A DNA stretch of 35,831 bases from Cyclobacteriaceae bacterium. Lineage in GTDB: Bacteria > Bacteroidota > Bacteroidia > Cytophagales > Cyclobacteriaceae. Where the stretch lies: NCBI GenBank assembly GCA_947458585.1, contig CANGYY010000024.1, positions 1 through 35,831 on the forward strand. The letters run 5' to 3'. Below, piece by piece: positions 4,704 to 29,456 of the stretch. Below the pieces are notes generated by a model, which made no database searches, was not told the DNA's origin, and worked only from the letters and a program-made list of their open reading frames with translations. Position 1 is the stretch's first letter. Every line of letters begins with the position of its first letter. The position numbers were made by a program, and so were the translations under genes.

Positions 4704-6167
4704 TTAAAGATTTTGTGAAAATCCTTTTAATTTAAGAATTCTCATTGTTGAGTTAAATATTGAAATCAATTCTTTGTCACGATATAACTTTAAATAAATT
4801 AAAATCATAATAAGAAAAGATGAAAATAAAGTTAATAAAATAGTAAAGGGTGAAAAATCTTTTAAGATTAAGCGAATAAAACTCAAAATAGTAATTTCGA
4901 TTACTATAATAAATATTTTTGCTTTTAATTCTTTAAAGTGATTATAAATCGAATAATCGTAAATTTTTTTAAAAACAAAAATTGTATGCACGTATCCAAT
5001 TAAACTAGAAACGACTAATGAAACTAAAAAAATATTTTCACCAAAAATAAATGCAAATATTAATGTCCCTAAAACATATATAGAATAGTAGAACTGTAGT
5101 TTAAGATAAAGATCGGATCGACCATAAACACTTATTGCGTTAATCATAATAGAACAAAGGGGCATGGTAAACCCAACTAAAGTTAAGTATTTTAAAATTT
5201 TAGCAGAGTAAAGCCATTTTGCTCCTAACAGGAACTCAATTAGTGGTTCTGCAGTTGAAAATAAAAATGCTAAAGTTAATCCAACAATTAAAAATGTATA
5301 CTTCATTGTTTGGACAACAAGTCTCAAAAAAGCCTCTTTATCATCTTGTAAACTAGCTAAAACTGGGTAACTTGAACTTGTAATCACAGACTCAATGTTA
5401 TTAGTAACAAGATTTCTTAACATCTCTGATCTATTATAAAAACCTAGAAAATCAATAGAAATAATTCTACCGATCATCAAGGCAAAAACATCTTTGTAGA
5501 TCCAGCCTAACAAACCACTGGCCAAAAGGTTCTTCGCAAAATTCCAATGTTTGACAATAATGGATTTGGAAAAAATAAATTTAGGAGTCCAACTTGTTGC
5601 AATGACCAATAAAAATAATGTTATTAAATAATTTATCAATGTTTTGAATATTAAGCTCCATACACCCGCTCCATTCAAGGCTAAAGTTATTGCACATATT
5701 CCAGAAATTACGCTTGAAATTATTATGACATTATTAAGTGACTTAAATTTAAAATTCTTAGTGAGAATCGCTTTATATACAATAGAAAGTGAACTTAGTA
5801 TTACAGACAAACCAACTACCCTCAGTAATAGAGTTATTTTAGGCAAACTGAAGTATGATGAGATAATTGGGGCTATTATAAATAGTACAAAATAGGTACT
5901 AGACCCGATTATTATGTTCAAGAAAAAAATAGTAGAATAATCAATTTCGCCCACAAAACGGTCCCTCACTAATGATTGATTCAGACCTGAATTTATAATA
6001 ATTTGCGAAATCATAATGAAAACGGAAAGTATCGCGATCAATCCAAAATCTGAAGGCGATAATATTCTTGCCAAAACAACTCCAAAAAAAAACTCAAAAA
6101 TGAGTGTTGAAAATTGACCAACTAAACTCCATTTAATACCGCTTTTAAATTGATTTATTCTTGTCAA
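4704..6167 (-). CDS. Wzx-like polysaccharide flippase (MATE/PST superfamily)
   Basis: About 487 residues with roughly a dozen hydrophobic segments and the family-typical N-terminus SGIKWSLVGQFST followed by VVLARILSPSDFGLIA, the hallmark of PST/Wzx O-unit translocases. It would flip undecaprenyl-linked repeat units across the inner membrane. The open frame extends upstream to a TTG at 6209, which would overlap the epimerase gene by 32 nt. I chose the TTG at 6167, giving MTRINQFKSGIKW, because it begins just after the epimerase stop and matches the usual short N-terminus. No ATG is available before residue 60, so the start is uncertain. The very A/T-rich codon use matches the surrounding cluster. 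Confidence 0.8.
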   Translation of the reverse strand: MTRINQFKSGIKWSLVGQFSTLIFEFFFGVVLARILSPSDFGLIAILSVFIMISQIIINSGLNQSLVRDRFVGEIDYSTIFFLNIIIGSSTYFVLFIIAPIISSYFSLPKITLLLRVVGLSVILSSLSIVYKAILTKNFKFKSLNNVIIISSVISGICAITLALNGAGVWSLIFKTLINYLITLFLLVIATSWTPKFIFSKSIIVKHWNFAKNLLASGLLGWIYKDVFALMIGRIISIDFLGFYNRSEMLRNLVTNNIESVITSSSYPVLASLQDDKEAFLRLVVQTMKYTFLIVGLTLAFLFSTAEPLIEFLLGAKWLYSAKILKYLTLVGFTMPLCSIMINAISVYGRSDLYLKLQFYYSIYVLGTLIFAFIFGENIFLVSLVVSSLIGYVHTIFVFKKIYDYSIYNHFKELKAKIFIIVIEITILSFIRLILKDFSPFTILLTLFSSFLIMILIYLKLYRDKELISIFNSTMRILKLKGFSQNL

Positions 6168-10834: not shown

Positions 10835-10908
10835 AGCAGAATATTAGTTAACTACGAAGAGTGTTTATTAACCACGGAGATCAATAAATATTTGTGGTGA
10901 GGAGTTTT

Positions 10909-11173
10909 TTAACCACGAATTTCACGAATTATGCGAAGAACATTTTAAAGCTAGTAACCATAAATTATATCCTTCATTTAAATTTTAAGCCCCCTAAAGG
11001 TGGAATTTGACGAATTGAGATTAGTGAAGAAGTAACTATTTGCTTTGCTTTAGGATTCTTCGTCTAATTCCGCGTGACGCGGCTTTTTAATCAATCAAAG
11101 AAGTTAAAGGGTCTAAAAGGTTTCTAATTCTACGAATTATATTCTTCGTTTAATTCGTCTAATTCGTGGTTAA
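10909..11173 (+). repeat. 265-bp palindromic element, copy A
   Basis: Left arm 10909-10943 (begins TTAACCACGAATTTCACG) and right arm 11139-11173 (ends AATTCGTGGTTAA) are imperfect inverted repeats of 35 bp. Inside are a second inverted pair (GGAATTTGACGAA with TTCGTCTAATTCC) and a stem CCGCG-TGA-CGCGG (11070-11082) followed by CTTTTT. The whole 265 bp can fold as one long hairpin with side stems. It fills most of the gap between the Wzz gene and the first GxxExxY gene. Degenerate arm-like fragments lie at about 10848-10900. Confidence 0.85.
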
Positions 11174-11180
11174 ACCCTTT

Positions 11181-11199
11181 TTTCTTATTCGTGGTTAAC
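11181..11199. repeat. Solo right-arm tip of the palindromic element
   Basis: TTATTCGTGGTTAACC repeats the outer end of the 265-bp element's right arm, separated from copy A by a few T. It ends about 4 bp from the stop of the GxxExxY gene. The mirror tip lies on the other side of the gene. Confidence 0.6.
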
Positions 11200-11202
11200 C
11201 CT

Positions 11203-11574
11203 TCAAAGCACTATCCTTTTGTACTGCAGTGAATTGCCTCCAAAATTAATCAATAAGGCTAAGTTCATTTGAGTTGCTTTAAGGTAGTTGAAGACCTGGG
11301 CTTCGTGCTCATTGGTTAGGCCCGATACACTTTTTAACTCCAACACTATCTTTTCGAAGCAAATAAAATCAGCAACAAAGTATTTACTCAACTTATCGCC
11401 TTTGTAAAACAACTCTAGAATATGCTCTCTAGAGAAAGGAATTTTTCTTTTGTTAAACTCCAATCCTAAAGACTCTTGATAAACACTCTCTAAAAATCCA
11501 TTGCCTAAAGTACGATGAACTTCCATCGCTGCTCCAATAATGGCATAGGATTCCTTTTTGAATAGTACTTCCAT
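11203..11574 (-). CDS. GxxExxY protein (PD-(D/E)XK nuclease-like), copy 1
   Basis: A 123-residue GxxExxY family protein. The signature is GFLESVY (after RTLGN), and the PD-(D/E)XK-type core follows as ADFICFEKIVLELKS (Asp, then E-x-K). The tail FNYLKATQMNLALLINFG is typical of the family. The fold is that of Mg-dependent nucleases, but no function is established for the family. The ATG at 11574 is preferred over a TTG at 11580. The gene is bracketed by inward-facing tips of the 265-bp element and then by full copies A and B. A second copy at 15137-15508 differs at about 19 of 125 positions, mostly conservatively, and the core motifs are kept in both. Constrained divergence suggests the protein is in use. 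Confidence 0.85.
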   Translation of the reverse strand: MEVLFKKESYAIIGAAMEVHRTLGNGFLESVYQESLGLEFNKRKIPFSREHILELFYKGDKLSKYFVADFICFEKIVLELKSVSGLTNEHEAQVFNYLKATQMNLALLINFGGNSLQYKRIVL

Positions 11575-11604
11575 AAACAAGTTGAAAAAAATAGGTAAAA
11601 AATT

Positions 11605-11640
11605 TTAACCACGAATTTCAATAATTATTCGCAGTGAAAA
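11605..11640. repeat. Partial left arm of the palindromic element
   Basis: TTAACCACGAATTTCA matches the left-arm tip of the 265-bp element, followed by a divergent AATAATTATTCGC stretch. It is 30 bp upstream of the GxxExxY start and directly precedes copy B. The same partial arm precedes copy C at about 14530-14568. Confidence 0.6.
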
Positions 11641-11645
11641 GTTTT

Positions 11646-11910
11646 TTAACCACGAATTTCACGAATTAGGCGAAGAACATGGTAAGGTTATTAGTTACTA
11701 TTTATATACTTCAACAAATTTAAAGCCACCTAAAGGTGAGATTTGACGAATTGAGATTAGTGAAGAAGTAACTATTTGCTTTGATTTAGGATTCTTCGTC
11801 TAATTCCGCGATTAGCGGCTCTTTAATCCCTTATAAAAATTTGAAGTTTATAATTAAGGATTAAATCTAGAAATTATGTTCTTCGTTTAATTCGTCTAAT
11901 TCGTGGTGAA
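11646..11910 (+). repeat. 265-bp palindromic element, copy B
   Basis: Same length and orientation as copy A. Arms are 11646-11680 and 11876-11910. The internal hairpins keep their pairing with changed bases: CACCT-AA-AGGTG and CCGC-GATTA-GCGG. It separates the GxxExxY gene from the 3' end of the export gene, 14 bp away. Confidence 0.85.
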
Positions 11911-11924
11911 GATTTTTTTCTTTT

Positions 11925-14489
11925 TTAATTTGCCGGGATCAACTGGTTTATTAATAGTCCAAGTGTCGCTAGACTCGTTCCAATCCCGATCCATCCTTGC
12001 GCTGTGATGCCTTCACGCTCGGGCTTTTGAGGCACGACAATCTCGGCTCCAGGCTCCACACGGGGGAAGAAGGACATAAATAAGAACTTCTTGGTTCGGT
12101 TTACATTTCCGTTGGCATAGACCACGTAGGACTTGCTTTTACGGGAGCGGTCTGTAAAGCCACCTGCACGAGAAATGTACTGCTTAAATCCTGCTCCCTG
12201 TTCAAATCGGGTAGAGGTAGGAAATAGTAACTCCCCTCGCATACGGACCGTCTGCAATTCTTTCGGAATAGAAAGCACATCCCCTTCTAATAAAATCAGG
12301 TCCTGTGCTCCTTGAGTATTTTTCAAAATAGCCTCCAAGTCAATCCCAATCATTTCGGTAGTCTTCATTACTACCTGAATGGAATCGCGTTGAGCTAAAG
12401 CCTCGATACTTTCCTTTCTAAACTGGTCTACCATCAGTACTTCTGGATTCGCCGAAGTCGCCTTGGATTTGTTGTCAATGTCTTTTTGGATACGACCTTC
12501 TAATTGTGCATTGAGCTCGCTTCGACTGAGGCTATCCAAAGGAAGGTTCCTTTTTACAGATTCCAAAAGCTGCTGCTGTTGTTGGGCCTCGGTAGGAGAT
12601 TGAAAGTACTCGTTGCGACGAATCAGCGTAGCCCCTTTAGGGTAGGCATAGGATGTAAATCCTCCCGAACGGCGAAGCAGGTCGGAAATGCGCTCGTTGG
12701 AAGAAGTAAGCGCATACTCTCCTGGATACATGATCTCTCCCTCTACGCGTACGAGTTGCTCGGAACGGTAGCCTGGGTTGCGACGCACAATCACGTGATC
12801 AAAGGGTTGCAGCACGATGGGCGTCTCGCTGATACTCAAGTCCGCTGCGATGGCTACAGGCAAGATCTCGGCAATCTGGCTGCCATCTTCGGAATTTTTA
12901 CGGCGTACCACTTCGATACGGCCGGCCGCAGCACCTGCCTTGAAGCCTCCTGCTTGGAGCACTAGATCCGCGACCCGCATATTTTCACCGAAGGCAAAAG
13001 CACCTGGGCTATTCACTTCCCCGGAGATCTTTAGGTAATACTCTTCCTGTAGCTCGTAGCGGCTAGGGATATTCAACACATCTTCACGCTGCAAGGCAAT
13101 GTCTGCCACTTTGCCTGAAAGTACCCCTTGCACATCCACAGGGACAATCGCCAAGGAGTAATCCGCCTGTGTACGGTACAAAGTAGCACGGTTCACAAAA
13201 GCATCGGGACGAAGGCCTTCTGCTTTTTGAATGAGTTGGCCTAGGGTCAAGCCCGGCTCCAAGGCGAAGGTCCCCGGACGAAGCAGGGCACCAGATATCT
13301 GTACTCGGTTTTCAAAACGCTCTAGGATCTCTCCGATGCGGAAACTGTCCCCATCCTTGGGAACGAAGGCTGAAAAGCCCCCCGCTTCCACTTCCTCCAC
13401 CCTACGCTCGGTACCCGTCATGCGGGTGAGGGTGAGTCGATCCTTATATCCTTCAGGCTTGAAGCCTCCAGCAAAGGAAAGGAGGTCATTTAAATTTTCA
13501 TTGGGCTTTACTTCAAAAAAGCCTTCCCGACGTACAGGGCCTGTTAGCTCCACACGAGCACGTACCGGCGGTACGATGATCACGTCGTTGTCCCGGAGGG
13601 TGATGCTGCTGCTATGCGAACCCTTGATTAAAAAGTCGTAGACATCGATCTCCGTAAATAGCTTGCTGTCACGGTACACTTGGATGTGACGGAAGGAACC
13701 GTTTTCATTCGGTCCACCGGCAGCAAAAAGCGCATTGAAGGGAGAAGCAAAGGCGGGTAGCGTGTAGTTACCGGGACGATTCAGTTCCCCTGCAAGGGCT
13801 ACCTGTACCGTACGGATGTTGCCTAGTCGCAAATCCATGGAACTGATGCCGGACGATAGGCCTGAATAGATCTGGGTAAGGGCGGTTTTGATACGGGAGG
13901 TAGCGGCAGCAACGGTGGAACCTCCTACTGCAATAGAACCCACGTTAGGAATAAGCACCTTGCCTTCAGGACTGACCTTCAAGTCGTAAGACTGCTGTGA
14001 AGCCCCGTAAATATCAATCAACAACTGATCCCCTGCGCCCAGTACATAGCCTTGTGGGGTAGGGATATTCAAACTGGGGTTAAAGTTGAGGGCTTTGTTG
14101 TAGAATAGCGTAAAGCCGAAGATTTTTTGTTGGTAAGCGCTCAAACCTGTACCATCCGAACCAGAAGAAGCTGTCTGCGTGGCTTCTACGGCCCTTCCTT
14201 CAGTTGCGCTGGTTTGGGTGGCAGCTCCCTGATTTCCTCCCTGCTTCAGTTTGGCCAAGCGCTGCTGCAATTTCCCTACTTCAGCCATAGGCATCCCACG
14301 TTCCCTTGCCATACTCACCACCTGAGACTCGTTGAGTCCCTGGCCCTTGGCACGATCTAGCATTTCTTGCAGCTGGGCGTCGGATAGCATATCGACTTTT
14401 ACCTTGCCGATGTCGGAGAGGGACTGGGCTAGTAACGAGGTAGTACCTAGTGCAAAAAGAAAAAGGAGAAGGAGAATTCTGAGTTTCAT
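11925..14489 (-). CDS. SLBB-domain outer-membrane polysaccharide export protein (Wza family, large)
   Basis: 854 residues. A signal peptide (MKLRILLLLFLFALGTTSLLAQ, broken after AQ at 21-22) precedes a low-complexity Q/A-rich segment (about 85-115). The Poly_export domain follows (about 145-230: GYVLGAGDQLLIDIYGASQQ), then a series of about five SLBB beta-grasp units up to about 800, such as VQVALAGELNRPGNYTLP, VELTGPVRREGFFEV and LVRVEGEIMYPGEYAL. The C-terminus is a hydrophobic helix (GIGTSLATLGLLINQLI). The protein would form the export channel across periplasm and outer membrane. It is much longer than E. coli Wza (379 aa), as is usual in Bacteroidota. There is no lipobox cysteine after the signal. 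It lies between the two repeat/GxxExxY modules, which separate it from the Wzz-like gene and from the regulator. Confidence 0.88.
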   Translation of the reverse strand: MKLRILLLLFLFALGTTSLLAQSLSDIGKVKVDMLSDAQLQEMLDRAKGQGLNESQVVSMARERGMPMAEVGKLQQRLAKLKQGGNQGAATQTSATEGRAVEATQTASSGSDGTGLSAYQQKIFGFTLFYNKALNFNPSLNIPTPQGYVLGAGDQLLIDIYGASQQSYDLKVSPEGKVLIPNVGSIAVGGSTVAAATSRIKTALTQIYSGLSSGISSMDLRLGNIRTVQVALAGELNRPGNYTLPAFASPFNALFAAGGPNENGSFRHIQVYRDSKLFTEIDVYDFLIKGSHSSSITLRDNDVIIVPPVRARVELTGPVRREGFFEVKPNENLNDLLSFAGGFKPEGYKDRLTLTRMTGTERRVEEVEAGGFSAFVPKDGDSFRIGEILERFENRVQISGALLRPGTFALEPGLTLGQLIQKAEGLRPDAFVNRATLYRTQADYSLAIVPVDVQGVLSGKVADIALQREDVLNIPSRYELQEEYYLKISGEVNSPGAFAFGENMRVADLVLQAGGFKAGAAAGRIEVVRRKNSEDGSQIAEILPVAIAADLSISETPIVLQPFDHVIVRRNPGYRSEQLVRVEGEIMYPGEYALTSSNERISDLLRRSGGFTSYAYPKGATLIRRNEYFQSPTEAQQQQQLLESVKRNLPLDSLSRSELNAQLEGRIQKDIDNKSKATSANPEVLMVDQFRKESIEALAQRDSIQVVMKTTEMIGIDLEAILKNTQGAQDLILLEGDVLSIPKELQTVRMRGELLFPTSTRFEQGAGFKQYISRAGGFTDRSRKSKSYVVYANGNVNRTKKFLFMSFFPRVEPGAEIVVPQKPEREGITAQGWIGIGTSLATLGLLINQLIPAN

Positions 14490-14529
14490 ATTGAGAAAAT
14501 CAATAAATGATGATGGTGCTAAGATTTTT

Positions 14530-14568
14530 TAAACCACGAATTTCAATAATTATTCGCGGTGAAAAGTT
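14530..14568. repeat. Partial left arm preceding copy C
   Basis: AAACCACGAATTTCAATAAT repeats the partial left arm seen at 11605-11640 almost base for base, including the ATTATTCGC tail. The unit 'partial arm plus full element' was therefore copied as a whole. Confidence 0.6.
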
Positions 14569-14570
14569 TT

Positions 14571-14835
14571 TTAACCACGAATTTCACGAATTAGGCGAAG
14601 AACATGGAAACTGACTTTTATACTTTTTTATATCCTCCAACCTAATTTAAAAGCCACAAGTGGCGATTTGACGAAGTTAAATGGATAGAGGTATTTAATA
14701 CTTTTCCCAAGTTGGGGTTCTTCGTCAAATTCCGCGGGACGCGGCTTTTTAATCAACCCGAGAAATCTAAGGGTATAAACGATTATTGAATCTGAGAATA
14801 ATGTTCTTCGTTCAATTCGTCTAATTCGTGGTTAA
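14571..14835 (+). repeat. 265-bp palindromic element, copy C
   Basis: Arms are 14571-14605 and 14801-14835. The first inner stem is changed to CCAC-AA-GTGG and the second to CCGCG-GGA-CGCGG, again with pairing kept. It lies just upstream of the export gene's start codon (14489) and may carry or shape its promoter region. Confidence 0.85.
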
Positions 14836-14842
14836 CCATTTT

Positions 14843-15098
14843 TTCACCACGAATTTCACGAATTAGGCGAAGAAAATGGTAAGGTTATAAGTTACTAAAT
14901 ATATCCTTCAACAAATGTTAAAAACACCTAAAGGTGAGATTTGACGAATTGAGATTAGTGAAGAAGTAACAATTTACTTTGCTATTGGGTTCTTCGTAAA
15001 ATTCTGCGGTACGCGGCTTTTTAATCAATCTGAGAAATTTGAGGGTATAGACGATTATTGAATCTGAGAATTATTTTCTTCGTTTAATTCGTGGTTAA
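14843..15098 (+). repeat. Palindromic element, copy D (256 bp)
   Basis: Tandem to copy C, 7 bp away. It has the same organisation but lacks one 9-bp TCTAATTCG-type unit in the right arm, which accounts for 256 instead of 265 bp. The second stem reads CTGCG-GTA-CGCGG, retaining pairing through a G-T pair. Confidence 0.82.
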
Positions 15099-15107
15099 AC
15101 CCTTATT

Positions 15108-15126
15108 TAATATTTCGTGGTTAAAA
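15108..15126. repeat. Solo right-arm tip next to GxxExxY copy 2
   Basis: ATATTTCGTGGTTAAAA is the outer end of the right arm. It lies 10 bp from the stop of the second GxxExxY gene, matching the arrangement at 11181-11199. Confidence 0.55.
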
Positions 15127-15136
15127 CATTTCCCTT

Positions 15137-15508
15137 TTACAGCACTATCCTTTTGTACTGCAGGGAGTTGGCCCCGAAGTTAATCAATAATGCTAGGTTC
15201 AGTTGACTAGCCTTGAGGTAGTTGAAAACCTGGGCTTCATGCTCACTAGTTAGACCTGAAACACTTTTTAACTCCAATATTATTTTATCAAAACAAATAA
15301 AATCGGCTGTAAAGTATTTGTTGAGCTTTTCGCCTTTATAAAACAACTCAAGGTTCTGCTCTTTTGAAAAAGGCACTTGCCTAATATTTAATTCTAACGC
15401 TAGCGACTCCTGATACACGCTTTCTAAAAATCCTCTACCTAGAGTTCGATGAACTTCCATCGCTGCTCCAATAATGGAATAAGATTCCTTTTTGAATAAT
15501 ACCTCCAT
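15137..15508 (-). CDS. GxxExxY protein (PD-(D/E)XK nuclease-like), copy 2
   Basis: A 123-residue paralogue of the gene at 11203-11574, about 85% identical by my count. GFLESVY, ADFICFDKIILELKS and the FNYLKASQLNLALLINFG tail are intact. Differences cluster at 38-60 (ALELNIRQVPFSKEQNLELF against GLEFNKRKIPFSREHILELF). The ATG at 15508 is preferred over the TTG at 15514. It is bracketed in the same way by inward-facing arm tips and by full copies D and E. Both copies are on the minus strand, so the modules are direct repeats about 3.9 kb apart around the export gene. Function is not established. Confidence 0.85.
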   Translation of the reverse strand: MEVLFKKESYSIIGAAMEVHRTLGRGFLESVYQESLALELNIRQVPFSKEQNLELFYKGEKLNKYFTADFICFDKIILELKSVSGLTSEHEAQVFNYLKASQLNLALLINFGANSLQYKRIVL

Positions 15509-15537
15509 AAACAAGTTGAAAAAATAGGTAAAAAATT

Positions 15538-15573
15538 TTAACCACGAATTTCACTTTTAACGAGCATCGTGAT
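15538..15573. repeat. Partial left arm next to GxxExxY copy 2
   Basis: TTAACCACGAATTTCAC is followed by unrelated bases. It begins 30 bp upstream of the GxxExxY start codon, the same spacing as at copy 1 (11605). Confidence 0.55.
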
Positions 15574-15582
15574 AAATAATTT

Positions 15583-15848
15583 TTAACCACGAATTTCACG
15601 AATTAGGCGAAGAACATTTTAAGGTTATCAAACCTAAATTATATCCTTCACTTTATTTTTAAACCACCTGAAGGTGGAATTTGACGAATTGAAATGAGTG
15701 GAGGAAGTAACTATTTTCTTTGTTGTTGAAGTATTCGTCAAATTCCGCGAAAAGCGGCTTTTTAATCAATCTGAGAAATCTGAGGGTATAGACGATTATT
15801 GAATTTGAGAATTATGTTCTTCGTTTAATTCGTCTAATTCGTGGTTAA
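15583..15848 (+). repeat. Palindromic element, copy E (266 bp)
   Basis: Arms begin at 15583 and end at 15848. The first stem is a perfect CCACCT-GA-AGGTGG and the second CCGC-GAAAA-GCGG. Two further solo right-arm tips follow at about 15859-15876 and 15902-15919. A short unrelated repeat (CCTTCGGCAGGCAGGCTCC) sits between them, apparently inserted into the second tip. Confidence 0.83.
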
Positions 15849-16008
15849 ACCCTTATTTTCTAATTCTTGGTTAACCTACCTTCGGCAGGCAGGCTCCTTT
15901 TTTCTAATTCGTGGTTAACCTTTTTTTCCCCCTCTGCTCGGATACAGCTTCGCCCTCTCAGTCACATTCATGACCTAGCGGGCAGGGAAATCGGAAAGCA
16001 AAAAGTCT

Positions 16009-16744: not shown

Positions 16745-17186
16745 AACGTTAAAAATCCCCCCGAAATGCTTCGGGGCAGGCTCCTTTCGGGGATCACCAA
16801 CTTATCCATTATCACTAAACTCATAGTATCATCCGCCGCAGCGGATTCACCAACTCATGCATCATCTATACCCCCGGTTTCACCGGGGGTTACAAACCTA
16901 TCAACCCCGCAATCCTGCGGGGCGGGCTCCTTCGGGTTTGAATAAAATTAGGATTCCATAAAAAAGGATTGAGCACAATAAATCCTTTAAAGCAAATTTG
17001 AATTGGTGGCACTAATAGCCTCGAAGAGGCGAAATGATAGTAACCGCGGGTAAAACCCGTGGTTAGGAAAAAAAAAATTAGCCTAGAGCCCCGAAGGTGG
17101 CGATACTTTTTTTTTGTTTCGCCGCCTGCGGGGCTCAAGGTACTTCCCTATCCTTAACCCCCGGTTTCACCGGAGGTCATAATTGT
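16745..17186. repeat. Composite intergenic repeat, left of the AbiE genes
   Basis: A chain of GC-rich hairpins with no coding frame I trust. It includes CCCCCGGTTTCACCGGGGG (16871-16889), CCCCGCAATCCTGCGGGG (16905-16922), GCCTCGAAGAGGC (about 17018-17030) and CCGCGGGTAAAACCCGTGG (about 17044-17062). Bases 16866-17067 match 19262-19466 in order over about 200 bp. The minus-strand frame at 16890-17138 runs through this repeat and is rejected as a gene. Confidence 0.7.
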
Positions 17187-17424: not shown

Positions 17425-18276
17425 TCACTCCACTTTCAAATAATCGATCAATTGCTCGAAATAATTTGGAGACCAAATGTCTAATTCTTGAGGATTTGGA
17501 ATAAATCGGATGACATCTTCCTTCACTCTATTCATGTCTAGAGAACGAATACGTTCGATGAGTAACTGATGAAGTTGTCCCTTGGTAAGAGACGGTTCGC
17601 TCCAATCCCCACTTTCACGAGCGCGTTCAGCAAGGTGTGCTAAATTTACGGGGATGCCTTTTTTGATATACCAGTCCAAATCATACCAATCCCTTCCCTT
17701 CACTCGCTCTTTCCATTTGCGGAAAAGTAAGGCATGCATTTTCCCCGCAAAAAGATTGGGTAACGTAAAGCAATTGACGTAAAATGAAAAGGGCTTAATC
17801 AACAACTTATTTTCTGTTTCAAACAGCAAGGGAGGTTGGGTATCTACCTCCAACTTGATTTTTATACTGGGCTTTTGGGAAAGGGAAAGCTGAGGGAGAT
17901 TGGTTTCAACCAAAAGTTCTCCCCAAAGTGTCTCTGCCTTTAAGAATGCAGAATCAATGGCGGAAATTGCCACTTTTGATTTCTGAATAAAGGTGACTTG
18001 CATTCCCAAAGCAGCAAATTCACTTTTTACTCCTTCTAGATAGGGGGCTAATTCAAAGGCTGAATTTTTTTCCAAAAGGGAAAAATCTAAATCCTCCGAA
18101 AAGCGATTCAATCCATGAAAAATCCGTAGGGCTGTACCCCCATAAAATGCGGCCTGCTTAAAAAAATTCGCCCGATACAATCCTGCCAAGGTGATTTCTT
18201 GCATGATTTCACGCAAAGCTTGCTCTGTTTCTAGCACTGTTTTGGGTGCGTACGAATCCATCCATTCCTTGATCAT
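17425..18276 (-). CDS. AbiEii/AbiGii-family nucleotidyltransferase toxin
   Basis: 283 residues of the DNA-polymerase-beta-like nucleotidyltransferase family of AbiEii toxins. It shows FYGGTALRIFHG (44-55, G-G-T/S motif), FSEDLDFSL (59-67, metal Asp residues), KIKLEVDTQPP (third acidic position) and AGKMHALLFRKWKERVKGRDWYDL-type motif IV (about 177-200). In studied members the toxin is bacteriostatic, and related MenT enzymes modify tRNA. The start overlaps the antitoxin stop by 4 nt (ATGA), the usual coupled pairing. All core residues look intact, so an active type IV-like toxin-antitoxin or phage-defence unit is likely. Repeats flank the pair on both sides. Confidence 0.85.
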   Translation of the reverse strand: MIKEWMDSYAPKTVLETEQALREIMQEITLAGLYRANFFKQAAFYGGTALRIFHGLNRFSEDLDFSLLEKNSAFELAPYLEGVKSEFAALGMQVTFIQKSKVAISAIDSAFLKAETLWGELLVETNLPQLSLSQKPSIKIKLEVDTQPPLLFETENKLLIKPFSFYVNCFTLPNLFAGKMHALLFRKWKERVKGRDWYDLDWYIKKGIPVNLAHLAERARESGDWSEPSLTKGQLHQLLIERIRSLDMNRVKEDVIRFIPNPQELDIWSPNYFEQLIDYLKVE

Positions 18277-18911
18277 AAGGCTTCAATTGTGTTTATAACT
18301 TCTTGAATACTATTTCTTTTGGGGCAGCTAGGCAGCCAACTTTTTATTGTTTCCAAATTAAGACCTTGCAGTTTTTCGCTGTCCAAGCGAAGGTCTTCCA
18401 GGAGAAAGGCTAGTGCCTGCTTCCTACTACGTAAGTTAACCCCTGAAGTAGTCACTAGCTTGTCGCAAAGCGCTTTTTCGGGGCTTGCTATTAATATAGT
18501 TTGCCTTGGAGTTACTGCCAGAGACTGAATCCCAAATGAATAATAAGGACTTGGAAGATGCGTGAAGGTAAAGATTCCCGTAGGAATTCGAAATTCTTTG
18601 GAAGGGTTGGTAGTCACGGAACTTACCGTGTACACTCGCTCTGGAATCAATCCCCAATAGGCCAAAGCTGCATCTTGGGACACATAGCTAGGCCCATAGA
18701 GGTGATTAGCGATGCAAAATGGCTCAGGAATTTGGGGACTAACGAGGCCACTGGTATGGTAAAGACCCCTACGAAGTTGAACCAAAAACCCTTGCTGCAC
18801 CAATTCCATCAGTTTATCGTAAGGCCTACGGTAATCCTTCAAGACATCCATGAGGACCTGGGTAGGTAGCGGAATTTCGCTGTAGGTTGCTAAATCTTTT
18901 ACTGGGTTCAT
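18273..18911 (-). CDS. AbiEi-like antitoxin/transcriptional repressor
   Basis: 212 residues with the AbiEi plan. An N-terminal winged-helix region (about 1-60, YDKLMELVQQGFLVQLRRGLYH) precedes the AbiEi antitoxin domain containing YGPSYVSQDAALAYWGLIPE, TVSSVTTNPSKEFRIPTGIFTF and LIASPEKALCDKLVTT. These are the most conserved blocks of the family. Known AbiEi proteins neutralise the toxin and repress their own promoter by binding inverted repeats. Here a strong pair of inverted repeats lies just upstream. ATG at 18911; the product is translationally coupled to the toxin gene. Confidence 0.85.
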   Translation of the reverse strand: MNPVKDLATYSEIPLPTQVLMDVLKDYRRPYDKLMELVQQGFLVQLRRGLYHTSGLVSPQIPEPFCIANHLYGPSYVSQDAALAYWGLIPERVYTVSSVTTNPSKEFRIPTGIFTFTHLPSPYYSFGIQSLAVTPRQTILIASPEKALCDKLVTTSGVNLRSRKQALAFLLEDLRLDSEKLQGLNLETIKSWLPSCPKRNSIQEVINTIEAL

Positions 18912-19093: not shown

Positions 19094-19550
19094 AGGTGGT
19101 GCCGAAAGCCTCGTAGAGGCGAAATAATTGTAACCGCGGGTGAAGCCCGGGGTAGGAAGAGTATATATGGCCTTAGAGTCCGCCACGGCGGACGATACTA
19201 GTTGCGCCCCCGCAATTCTACGGGGCAGGCTGCTTCGGGGCTTACCAAATCATACATTTTCCATACCCCCAGTTGCACCGGGGGTCATAATTGTATCAAT
19301 CCCGCAATCCTGCGGGACAGGCTCCTTCGGGTTTGAACAAAATGAGGATTCTACCTAGAAAGATTGCATAAACTATAGATCCTTTAAAGCAAAATTTAAA
19401 TAGGGACTACAAAAAGCCTCGAAGAGGCGAAACGATTATAACCCCGGGTGAAGCCCGGGGTATGGAAGCATGAAGTTGGTGAAGAGTCCGCCGCGGCGGA
19501 CGATACTATTTTTTGTGTCGCCCCCGCAATGCTACGGGGCAGGCACCTTA
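19094..19550. repeat. Composite intergenic repeat, right of the AbiE genes
   Basis: The same repeat family as at 16745-17186, here as two tandem units. The markers GCCTCG(T/A)AGAGGCGAAA, AACC(G/C)CGGGTGAAGCCCGGGG and CCGCAAT(C/G)CT(G/A)CGGG each recur. TCCGCCGCGGCGGACGATAC (about 19487-19506) repeats TCCGCCACGGCGGACGATAC (about 19178-19197). No gene is seen in it. Confidence 0.7.
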
Positions 19551-26051: not shown

Positions 26052-26216
26052 AAAAAATCCCCCTAACCCCCTTAAGAAGGGGGAGTCGCACCAATTATGA
26101 TTCAAACAATTATTTTAGACCTACAAAAATCAACTTTAAGAAAAGTGAATTTTGATTTAAATAGTTGAGGAGCTATAGATGCGATTCCCCCTTGAAAGGG
26201 GGTAAGGGGGATTTTT
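26052..26216. repeat. MITE-like AATCCCCC element, copy 1 (about 165 bp)
   Basis: Left end AAAAATCCCCCTAACCCCCT with its own small hairpin and GGGGGAGTCGCA; right end TGCGATTCCCCC...GGGGGATTTTT. The ends are terminal inverted repeats of about 35 bp around an AT-rich core. It sits between the glgB start and the katG end and has no coding capacity. Confidence 0.8.
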
Positions 26217-28656: not shown

Positions 28657-28800
28657 AAATCCCCCCTGCCCCCTTGTAAGGGGGAGTCGCATGAATTGGA
28701 CTTCAAACAGATACTAGTATTTCAAAAGTCCTGATTTATAATTAATGGTTGGTGAGCGCCAAGATGTGATTCCCCCTTTAAAGGGGGTAAGGGGGATTTT
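28657..28800. repeat. MITE-like AATCCCCC element, copy 2 (144 bp)
   Basis: Opens AAATCCCCCCTGCCCCCTTG and GGGGGAGTCGCAT; closes ATGTGATTCCCCC...GGGGGATTTT. It lies upstream of katG and ends inside the stop codon of the DUF559 gene (28799-28801). Confidence 0.8.
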
Positions 28801-29176
28801 AACTGATTTTTTTCTCAAAATCATCGATAAAATACCCAATCTCCTCTAATACACTAGGCATTGATCGCTTAACCTCTAAATCCGAAAAACGCAGAAAATT
28901 CACACCCATACGCTCAATAACCTTTTGTCTTTCTTGGTCCTCCACTACAGATTCTTCAAAAAAATGAGAATTACCATCAACCTCAATGACTAGATCCAGT
29001 TTTAGACAATAAAAATCAACAATGTAATTACCAAGCGGCTTCTGCCTATTGAAGGCATATCCTCGAAACTGACTTGCTCGTAGTTTTTGCCAAAGCAAAA
29101 TCTCTGAAAGCGTTGAGTGACTTCTAAGATCTCTTGAAAATTCTTTGAGGTTTTTATTGTAAGGAAGAAAAAACAT
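28799..29176 (-). CDS. DUF559 endonuclease-like protein
   Basis: 125 residues of the DUF559 family, related to the very-short-patch-repair (Vsr) endonuclease fold. The blocks are LRSHSTLSEILLWQKLRASQFRGYAFNRQKPLGNYIVDFYC, then LVIEVDGNSHF (I-V-D...E-V-D-G core with the catalytic acidic residues) and VNFLRFSD near the end. It probably cuts or nicks DNA, but the physiological role of the family is not established. The gene lies exactly between two copies of the AATCCCCC element: the TAA is formed at the border of copy 2, and copy 3 begins 84 bp upstream of the ATG. No methylase or restriction partner is adjacent. Confidence 0.82.
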   Translation of the reverse strand: MFFLPYNKNLKEFSRDLRSHSTLSEILLWQKLRASQFRGYAFNRQKPLGNYIVDFYCLKLDLVIEVDGNSHFFEESVVEDQERQKVIERMGVNFLRFSDLEVKRSMPSVLEEIGYFIDDFEKKIS

Positions 29177-29259
29177 GGAAGAGGATTAAAAAATGAATTG
29201 TCGAATGGTTCACTCTAAAAAAAATCAAATCAATTAACTGATTTGCAATGAAAAAAAAG

Positions 29260-29447
29260 AAATCCCCCTTGCCCCCTTATTAAGGGGGAGTCGCATCACT
29301 GGCACCTCAAACATTATACTAAGAAATAAACTGGATCAATTCAAAAGAAAGGATTTCACTGCTTAATTAAGTGCCTGAGAAACAGCAGATGTGATTCCCT
29401 CCCGATAGTCATCGGGACAGGCCCTTTAAAGGGGGTAAGGGGGATTT
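29260..29447. repeat. MITE-like AATCCCCC element, copy 3, with nested insertion
   Basis: Left end AATCCCCCTTGCCCCC and GGGGGAGTCGCAT; right end GATGTGATTCCCTC...GGGGGTAAGGGGGATTTG. The right arm is interrupted by CCCGATAGTCATCGGGACAG (about 29401-29420), itself a short palindrome common in the phylum. This makes the copy longer (188 bp). It ends 9 bp before the esterase stop codon. Confidence 0.78.
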
Positions 29448-29456
29448 GTTAATTTC

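Follow-up and report, generated by a model that had tools for sequence, protein, structure and literature searches.

The window analysed here is a 35,831-nucleotide stretch of DNA from a Cyclobacteriaceae bacterium, contig C24 of a draft genome (2.78 Mb, 82.6% complete). It holds two genes for a small GxxExxY nuclease-like protein, which stand among five palindromic elements (A to E) with inverted arms of about 35 nt and a number of smaller arm fragments. The cluster, with each open reading frame (ORF), element and fragment in order of position, is composed as follows.

10909–11173, plus strand: palindromic element A, arms 10908–10943 and 11139–11174 (repeat analysis, BLAST)
11187–11201, plus strand: solo right-arm tip just past the stop of gene 1 (sequence reading)
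11203–11580, minus strand: GxxExxY nuclease gene 1, ORF from TTG with an in-frame ATG 6 nt inward (PF13366 3.1e-39, TIGR04256 2e-42)
11607–11636, plus strand: mini-palindrome of 30 bp between gene 1 and element B (3-mismatch arm match, sequence reading)
11646–11910, plus strand: palindromic element B, arms about 11646–11680 and 11876–11910 (repeat analysis, BLAST, palindrome finder)
14532–14561, plus strand: mini-palindrome before element C (sequence reading)
14571–14835, plus strand: palindromic element C (BLAST, alignment with locus L184)
14843–15098, plus strand: palindromic element D (BLAST match 14843–15092, the last bases lying outside it; end read from the sequence)
15113–15126, plus strand: solo right-arm tip just past the stop of gene 2 (sequence reading)
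15137–15514, minus strand: GxxExxY nuclease gene 2, ORF from TTG with an in-frame ATG 6 nt inward (PF13366 6.9e-40, TIGR04256 4e-43)
15540–15554, plus strand: partial left arm between gene 2 and element E (sequence reading)
15583–15848, plus strand: palindromic element E (BLAST, folding)
15859–15920, plus strand: two more solo right-arm tips beyond element E, 15859–15876 and 15903–15920 (repeat family D8, sequence reading)

A BLAST search of the whole genome with copy C returned the five copies, all on the plus strand, the other four being 73–79% identical to C. No sixth full copy was found by this search of the draft, as the remaining 19 matches (E up to 10) were arm-to-arm or short. Likewise, an arm pattern allowing up to 3 mismatches had 11 matches in the genome, 10 of them inside the cluster, and its reversed control had 0. 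From their coordinates, elements A to E lie about 30, 66, 302, 39 and 69 bp from a gene, and copy D has a 9-bp deletion in its right arm. An earlier note, made from the sequence alone, had described five same-strand elements with inverted arms and a solo right-arm tip after both gene stops, and had called both genes GxxExxY nuclease-like; the BLAST, repeat and profile searches and the sequence itself agree with all of this. The partial left arm that it placed upstream of both genes is present before gene 2, but what precedes gene 1 is the 30-bp mini-palindrome. The similar mini-palindrome before element C is also present at L184, a locus of a near relative. L184 is a duplicate of L069, a contig titled uncultured Algoriphagus, whose orthologous GxxExxY protein is 98% identical. 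In the alignment, L184 has a single element where the window has C and D; thus, the number of elements differs between the window and this relative, a difference that recombination or insertion could explain.

Both window proteins (125 aa) score far above the curated cut-offs, with 134–137 bits against 22 for PF13366 and 144–147 against 35 for TIGR04256, and PF13366 was the only Pfam family matched in the two genes, with no transposase domain. The PD-(D/E)XK set E31, D71, E81, K83 and Q95 is invariant in 50 of 50 aligned relatives. The AlphaFold2 model of the gene 2 protein has a mean predicted local distance difference test (pLDDT) score of 95.7, and its nearest folds in the PDB are Cas4, lambda exonuclease and RecE, at weak E values of 2e-3 to 1.3e-2 and with 0 matches at 0.001 or below; a search of the PDB by sequence gave two matches, at chance level only. 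The ratio of nonsynonymous to synonymous divergence (dN/dS) was 0.041–0.070 in all 8 pairs tested, including the pair of window paralogues. The latter differ by a dS of 1.29, and the two genes are therefore old and have both been kept. As judged from sequence comparison, the protein is under strong purifying selection and retains a complete predicted active site. With one query each, 0 of 50,697 phage records and 8 of 72,556 plasmid records matched GxxExxY. Neither a function nor a repeat association of the family was found in the literature searched, which had subscription papers and bioRxiv outside its scope.

The association between gene and repeats extends far beyond the window. We compiled 80 loci (the best 80 of 311 relatives) and 80 further stretches from relatives and the window's own genome, and a profile built from the hits identified 162 GxxExxY ORFs in 157 of 161 sources. 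For each of the 155 genes with at least 100 bp on each side (7 had shorter flanks and were dropped), the 300 bp upstream were aligned with the reverse complement of the 300 bp downstream. The median score was 15. It was 9 both for 879 control ORFs taken from these loci at a distance above 700 bp (p 6e-52) and for mispaired flanks (p 6e-54). The 95th percentile of the control ORFs, 12.5, served as threshold, and 109/155 GxxExxY genes reached it. These counts, like those of the palindrome finder below, include orthologues and two duplicate pairs (L069 = L184, L107 = L188), so the rows are not all independent; after removal of relatives above 70% identity, 61 of 98 genes were still bracketed. A stricter palindrome finder placed 2.89% of the bases within 300 bp of the gene in palindromes, vs 0.31% at 2–6 kb; in 43 of 157 loci it detected arms no further than 300 bp from the gene. 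The 91 genes scoring at least 14 come from records titled Bacteroidetes, Planctomycetota, Deltaproteobacteria, Desulfobulbaceae, Lentisphaerae, Limnochordia, Calditrichota, Dependentiae, Chloroflexi and Campylobacterales, which we take to be about nine phyla. GxxExxY genes are thus often bracketed by inverted arms, in many bacterial groups. An arm pattern stricter than that used on the own genome was present in 4 of 72 Algoriphagus genomes (G000, G088, G085 and G015). In three of these (G000, G088 and G015), a GxxExxY gene is accompanied by arms of the window's word type, and in G085 the contig ends within the element.

The arms differ in sequence between loci (for example CCACGAAT, CCACAGAG, CGCAAAG and CACATAG), and many of them share one grammar, in which words of the form CRCnnAK follow each other about one helical turn apart. 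The word of the window is CACGAAT. When runs were counted under the conditions that nn be equal and the step be 9–12 bp, CRCnnAK runs were present in 54/155 gene flanks vs 25/879 controls, and the reversed grammar in 1/155 and 1/879; within the permitted range, 66 of 73 steps were 9 or 10 bp long. The linkage of the elements to the nuclease, which the earlier note had drawn from two genes, is thus borne out both by the bracketing and by the grammar of the arms.

The same note had argued that the internal stems change while their pairing is kept beyond drift, and that selection therefore acts on structure, as single-stranded DNA or RNA. In this explanation the protein would process a hairpin. 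Copy E, the only copy folded, is very stable (z = -7.82 as DNA and -7.95 as RNA, i.e., about -8, with 0/200 shuffles as stable), the inner stems stay paired in most copies, and 94% of the named-stem cells pair. However, the covariation among A to E and one relative amounts to 2 double changes over 54 pairs in 6 copies, and 131/500 shuffles had as many, so stem covariation was rejected as evidence. Across the whole window, no Rfam model matched at its gathering score. Additionally, the two arms of a locus do not agree evenly along their length. Among 50 arms, mismatches affected 104/904 word positions and 114/226 spacer positions, and in 30 non-redundant loci 66/594 (11%) vs 76/152 (50%). Since the words were located on one arm and alignment favours long matches, we slid the word mask along the arms of the 30 non-redundant loci; the contrast was largest at slide 0, and a slide of at least 2 removed or reversed most of it. 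In the window, copies A, B, C and E differ between their arms at the first spacer (TC vs AG, on one strand), which copy D has lost, and all five copies differ at the second, although G-U pairing would still be possible for the G's there. Agreement between the arms is thus found in the words and not in the spacers, so that the words seem to be kept rather than continuous pairing. This points to recognition of the words as sequence over selection for continuous pairing, and we consider selection on a hairpin quite unlikely as the explanation of the arms.

If the protein recognises the words, proteins that are alike should carry like words. A word class was assigned to 85 of the 162 genes, and pairs that share context or exceed 85% identity were removed before comparison. 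The share of same-class pairs was 84/1466 below 40% protein identity, 97/1006 at 40–50%, 189/674 at 50–60% and 36/76 at 60–85%; 0/500 permutations reached the contrast between the bins. Within genus and between genomes, 35/332, 35/337, 41/160 and 23/39 pairs shared their class with rising identity (45 genes), a signal reached by 0/1000 within-genome permutations. Both sets of figures could be inflated by shared distant context that escaped the DNA comparison. Word class is linked to protein relatedness in these comparisons, i.e., gene and arms tend to change together.

This link bears on a passive explanation, in which MITE-like repeats (miniature inverted-repeat transposable elements) are moved by an unrelated transposase or multiplied by recombination between arms, and the nuclease merely shares their gaps. 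The difference between the window and L184 (C and D vs one element) can arise by arm recombination, and no target-site duplication is known, both of which suit hitch-hiking. But the word class follows the protein even in same-genus loci without common context, and the grammar is tied to GxxExxY genes when compared with control genes of the same loci, so that passive carriage seems unlikely to us.

A joint change of gene and arms appears to have taken place at the chromosomal site in front of argS, for which the best 30 of 72 loci were taken and 29 could be anchored. A GxxExxY gene above 80 bits is present in 14 of these sites, a gene in pieces or shortened in 8 and none in 7; the 7 gene-less sites keep the right arm in 5 (two of which, L325 and L326, are near-identical relatives) and nothing in 2. 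In a tree of the flanks of the 14 gene-bearing loci, G021 and G019 are sisters (100/100). In the gene tree, the G021 gene falls into one group (100/99) with the genes of G075, G004 and G025. These are all of the AAAG class, unlike the gene of G019, which is of the AGAG class. The flank clade is rejected on the gene data (AU, approximately unbiased test, p 0.004; the group was named after the pairwise identities had been seen). Between G021 and G019, BLAST homology extends up to 4 nt short of the upstream gene's end, and the first 21 nt of argS are the same in both and in G025 as well. Joint replacement of gene and arms would be the simplest reading of this site, and it is likely but not proven.

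A GxxExxY gene of G019 is split by a 149-bp insert (L219, about 5231–5379) whose ends carry a repeated stretch of about 10 bp. This insert was considered as one of the palindromes and rejected as an unrelated insertion.

The argS site also offers a case for regarding the arms as host regulatory sites, i.e., terminators, attenuators or operators through which the nuclease controls itself, rather than as ends of an element. In an operon-like order, the left arm usually begins at most about 12 bp from the upstream stop and the right arm finishes a little ahead of argS; words at each helical turn would also suit an operator. Against this, the arms lie on both sides of the gene, gene-less palindromes exist, and the right arm remains without a gene at the 5 of 29 argS sites mentioned above; a regulatory role as the reason for the arms is therefore improbable in our judgement.

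The second site compared is that of the window itself, beside wza, where the cassette occupies 1.1 and 1.5 kb. Among 26 wza orthologues of other genomes (L155–L180, from 39 genomes with a match), 25 have no GxxExxY, IVP or DUF559 gene; their distance to the helix-turn-helix (HTH) gene is 29–220 bp, and they are too diverged for the junctions to be read. The remaining locus, in G015, has a GxxExxY gene on one side of wza and a 23S_rRNA_IVP gene on the other. The latter (L188, 2278–2658) occupies the gap from wzz to wza, which in the window is filled by gene 1 together with A and B, so this one gap holds two kinds of cassette, IVP in G015 and GxxExxY in the window.

Arm copies also occur away from the gene. 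With arm patterns read off GxxExxY arms, the closed genome G033 had 14/17 matches within 12 kb of one GxxExxY gene, 7 of them within 1 kb, with 0 in the control; the other 3 had no GxxExxY gene nearby. Two of three matches in G083 bracket a GxxExxY gene, and G021 counts for nothing, having one match for the pattern and one for the reversed control. In a stretch of 12 kb in G033 (L264, 4500–16500), right-arm copies are mixed with a further repeated palindrome and a repeat of 8-bp period (GTAGGGAA-like). In ten genomes from other groups, 96 arm matches were obtained (control 0), of which 14 were within 500 bp of a PF13366 match. This near-gene excess (14/96 vs 0.14 expected) was set aside as evidence of linkage, being largely circular, as the genomes were chosen through arm-bearing loci, and outside those loci only two arms at G096:C20 were clearly new. 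The other 82 matches are separated from any GxxExxY gene by over 500 bp, several of them being compact hairpins; arm copies can therefore be dispersed. G015 has two exact arm matches without a GxxExxY gene in the surrounding 9 kb, and thus solitary arms exist. The earlier note had named elements as common away from the gene as near it as the finding that would speak against linkage. The 82 of 96 arms away from the gene in the ten genomes go part of the way towards such a finding, but none of the five full elements of the window lies that far from a gene.

Of the systems known, this arrangement most resembles the REP-associated tyrosine transposases (RAYTs) and their repetitive extragenic palindromic (REP) sequences and REPINs. 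For RAYT, PMC2817692 reports a conserved chromosomal gene flanked by inverted palindromic repeats, gene-less copies, repeats that may accumulate near the gene, and coevolution of gene and repeat. Flanking by two inverted repeats was found in the 109 of 155 GxxExxY genes above the threshold. Coevolution is seen between genomes and is not significant between paralogues of one genome. Accumulation near the gene is seen in the window cluster and in G033, and dispersal in the ten genomes. However, GxxExxY is a PD-(D/E)XK nuclease, no Y1 transposase of the IS200/IS605 kind (Transposase_17) was matched in the two genes, and the arms are phased heptads and not REPs of 20–40 bp. Since the defining enzyme differs, the cassette does not belong to RAYT/REP. 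MITEs and insertion sequences share the inverted ends, gene-less copies and intergenic location, but differ from the cassette in that the two genes have no transposase domain and are under strong purifying selection and that no target-site duplication was found. The intervening sequences (IVS) of 23S rRNA, with their S23 or four-helix protein (PF05635), are comparable in that stand-alone PF05635 genes in our loci are bracketed too; GxxExxY is another protein family, and Rfam found no rRNA in the window. In Coxiella, the IVS is reported to be excised by RNase III (PMC4990558). The Cas4, lambda exonuclease and RecE branch of PD-(D/E)XK contains the nearest folds, a weak resemblance, and GxxExxY has a mere 125 aa.

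Our preferred reading is that the window carries a chromosomal nuclease-plus-repeat element that works like RAYT/REP with an unrelated PD-(D/E)XK nuclease, to which we give a probability of roughly 0.5. The nuclease, possibly a multimer lined up along one helical face, would recognise CRCnnAK words (here CACGAAT), about one per helical turn, in the inverted arms and would nick or cut there. Repair might then copy or move the arms and the palindromes that lack a gene, and occasionally gene and arms as a unit. The 265-bp copies A to E would be such gene-less members that have stayed close to the gene. From the patterns described above we infer both that the words are bound and cut by the protein and that this cutting drives the copying. 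The earlier note's suggestion of a mobile or amplifying element served by the protein is a reasonable one on these grounds: the link between word class and protein, the copy-number difference from L184 and the apparent replacement at argS are in its favour.

Several observations weigh against this reading. No target-site duplication was found at the sites compared, where the wza orthologues are too diverged for junctions. Bracketing is below the threshold in 46/155 GxxExxY genes, 77/162 genes have no word class, and 82/96 arm motifs in the ten other genomes are distant from the gene. The window genes stand between elements and not within one, with gene-adjacent arm tips that face outward, which by eye is the less common arrangement among high-scoring loci. 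As for coevolution, protein pairs without a BLAST hit share a class in 28/235 cases (12%), more than in the bin below 40% identity, the paralogues of one genome show no class signal (487/1000 permutations), and only 32/85 genes have the class of their nearest non-orthologous neighbour. At argS, the gene is in pieces or shortened at 8 of the 29 sites and lost at 7. Three other AAAG genes lie on the opposite side of the gene tree, and the limits of the exchanged stretch are resolved only roughly. Therefore, long-standing sorting of two old versions is a possible alternative to replacement at that site.

If the nuclease-plus-repeat reading holds, the association would give a testable function to a widespread family named only for its motif, and possibly a second, non-Y1 route to REP-like repeats. 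The words CACGAAT, CACAGAG, CGCAAAG, CACATAG and others would form a natural set for learning how protein and DNA word are matched, and arm-like repeats of this kind would otherwise be taken for nondescript intergenic DNA.

Bracketing is also frequent around DUF559 and 23S_rRNA_IVP genes. Ten control proteins picked by eye from 33 high-scoring outliers included nine of PF05635 (23S_rRNA_IVP) by Pfam. Among PF05635 genes in the loci, 14/16 score at least 12.5, or 12/14 without duplicates. Stand-alone PF05635 genes at L078, L216, L110, L089, L242, L087, L136 and L107 have arms of other short iterated words, e.g., GTTAAAAGTTAAACG. For DUF559, 17/25 ORFs with usable flanks reach 12.5, many with CCCCCTT/AAGGGGG arms; this count includes the window gene twice and a split gene twice, and without them it is 15/23. 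We tentatively suggest, with somewhat less than even confidence, a multi-phylum class of elements in which a small PD-(D/E)XK nuclease, and no transposase, recognises and spreads phased-heptad inverted arms with a changeable two-letter specificity in each word that coevolves with it; the DUF559 nucleases and the 23S_rRNA_IVP four-helix proteins would be parallel systems with arm codes of their own.

Elsewhere in the window, an AbiEii gene adjoins a 212-aa ORF without a Pfam match (17425–18911). The remaining palindromes, and the DUF559 gene that some of them bracket, are these.

28799–29176, minus strand: DUF559 gene, bracketed by a second palindrome family (CCCCCTT/AAGGGGG)
26053–26216, 28657–28799 and 29257–29450: palindromes of this second family (palindrome finder)
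16870–17182 and 19259–19467: palindromes of the CCCCGG..CCGGGG type

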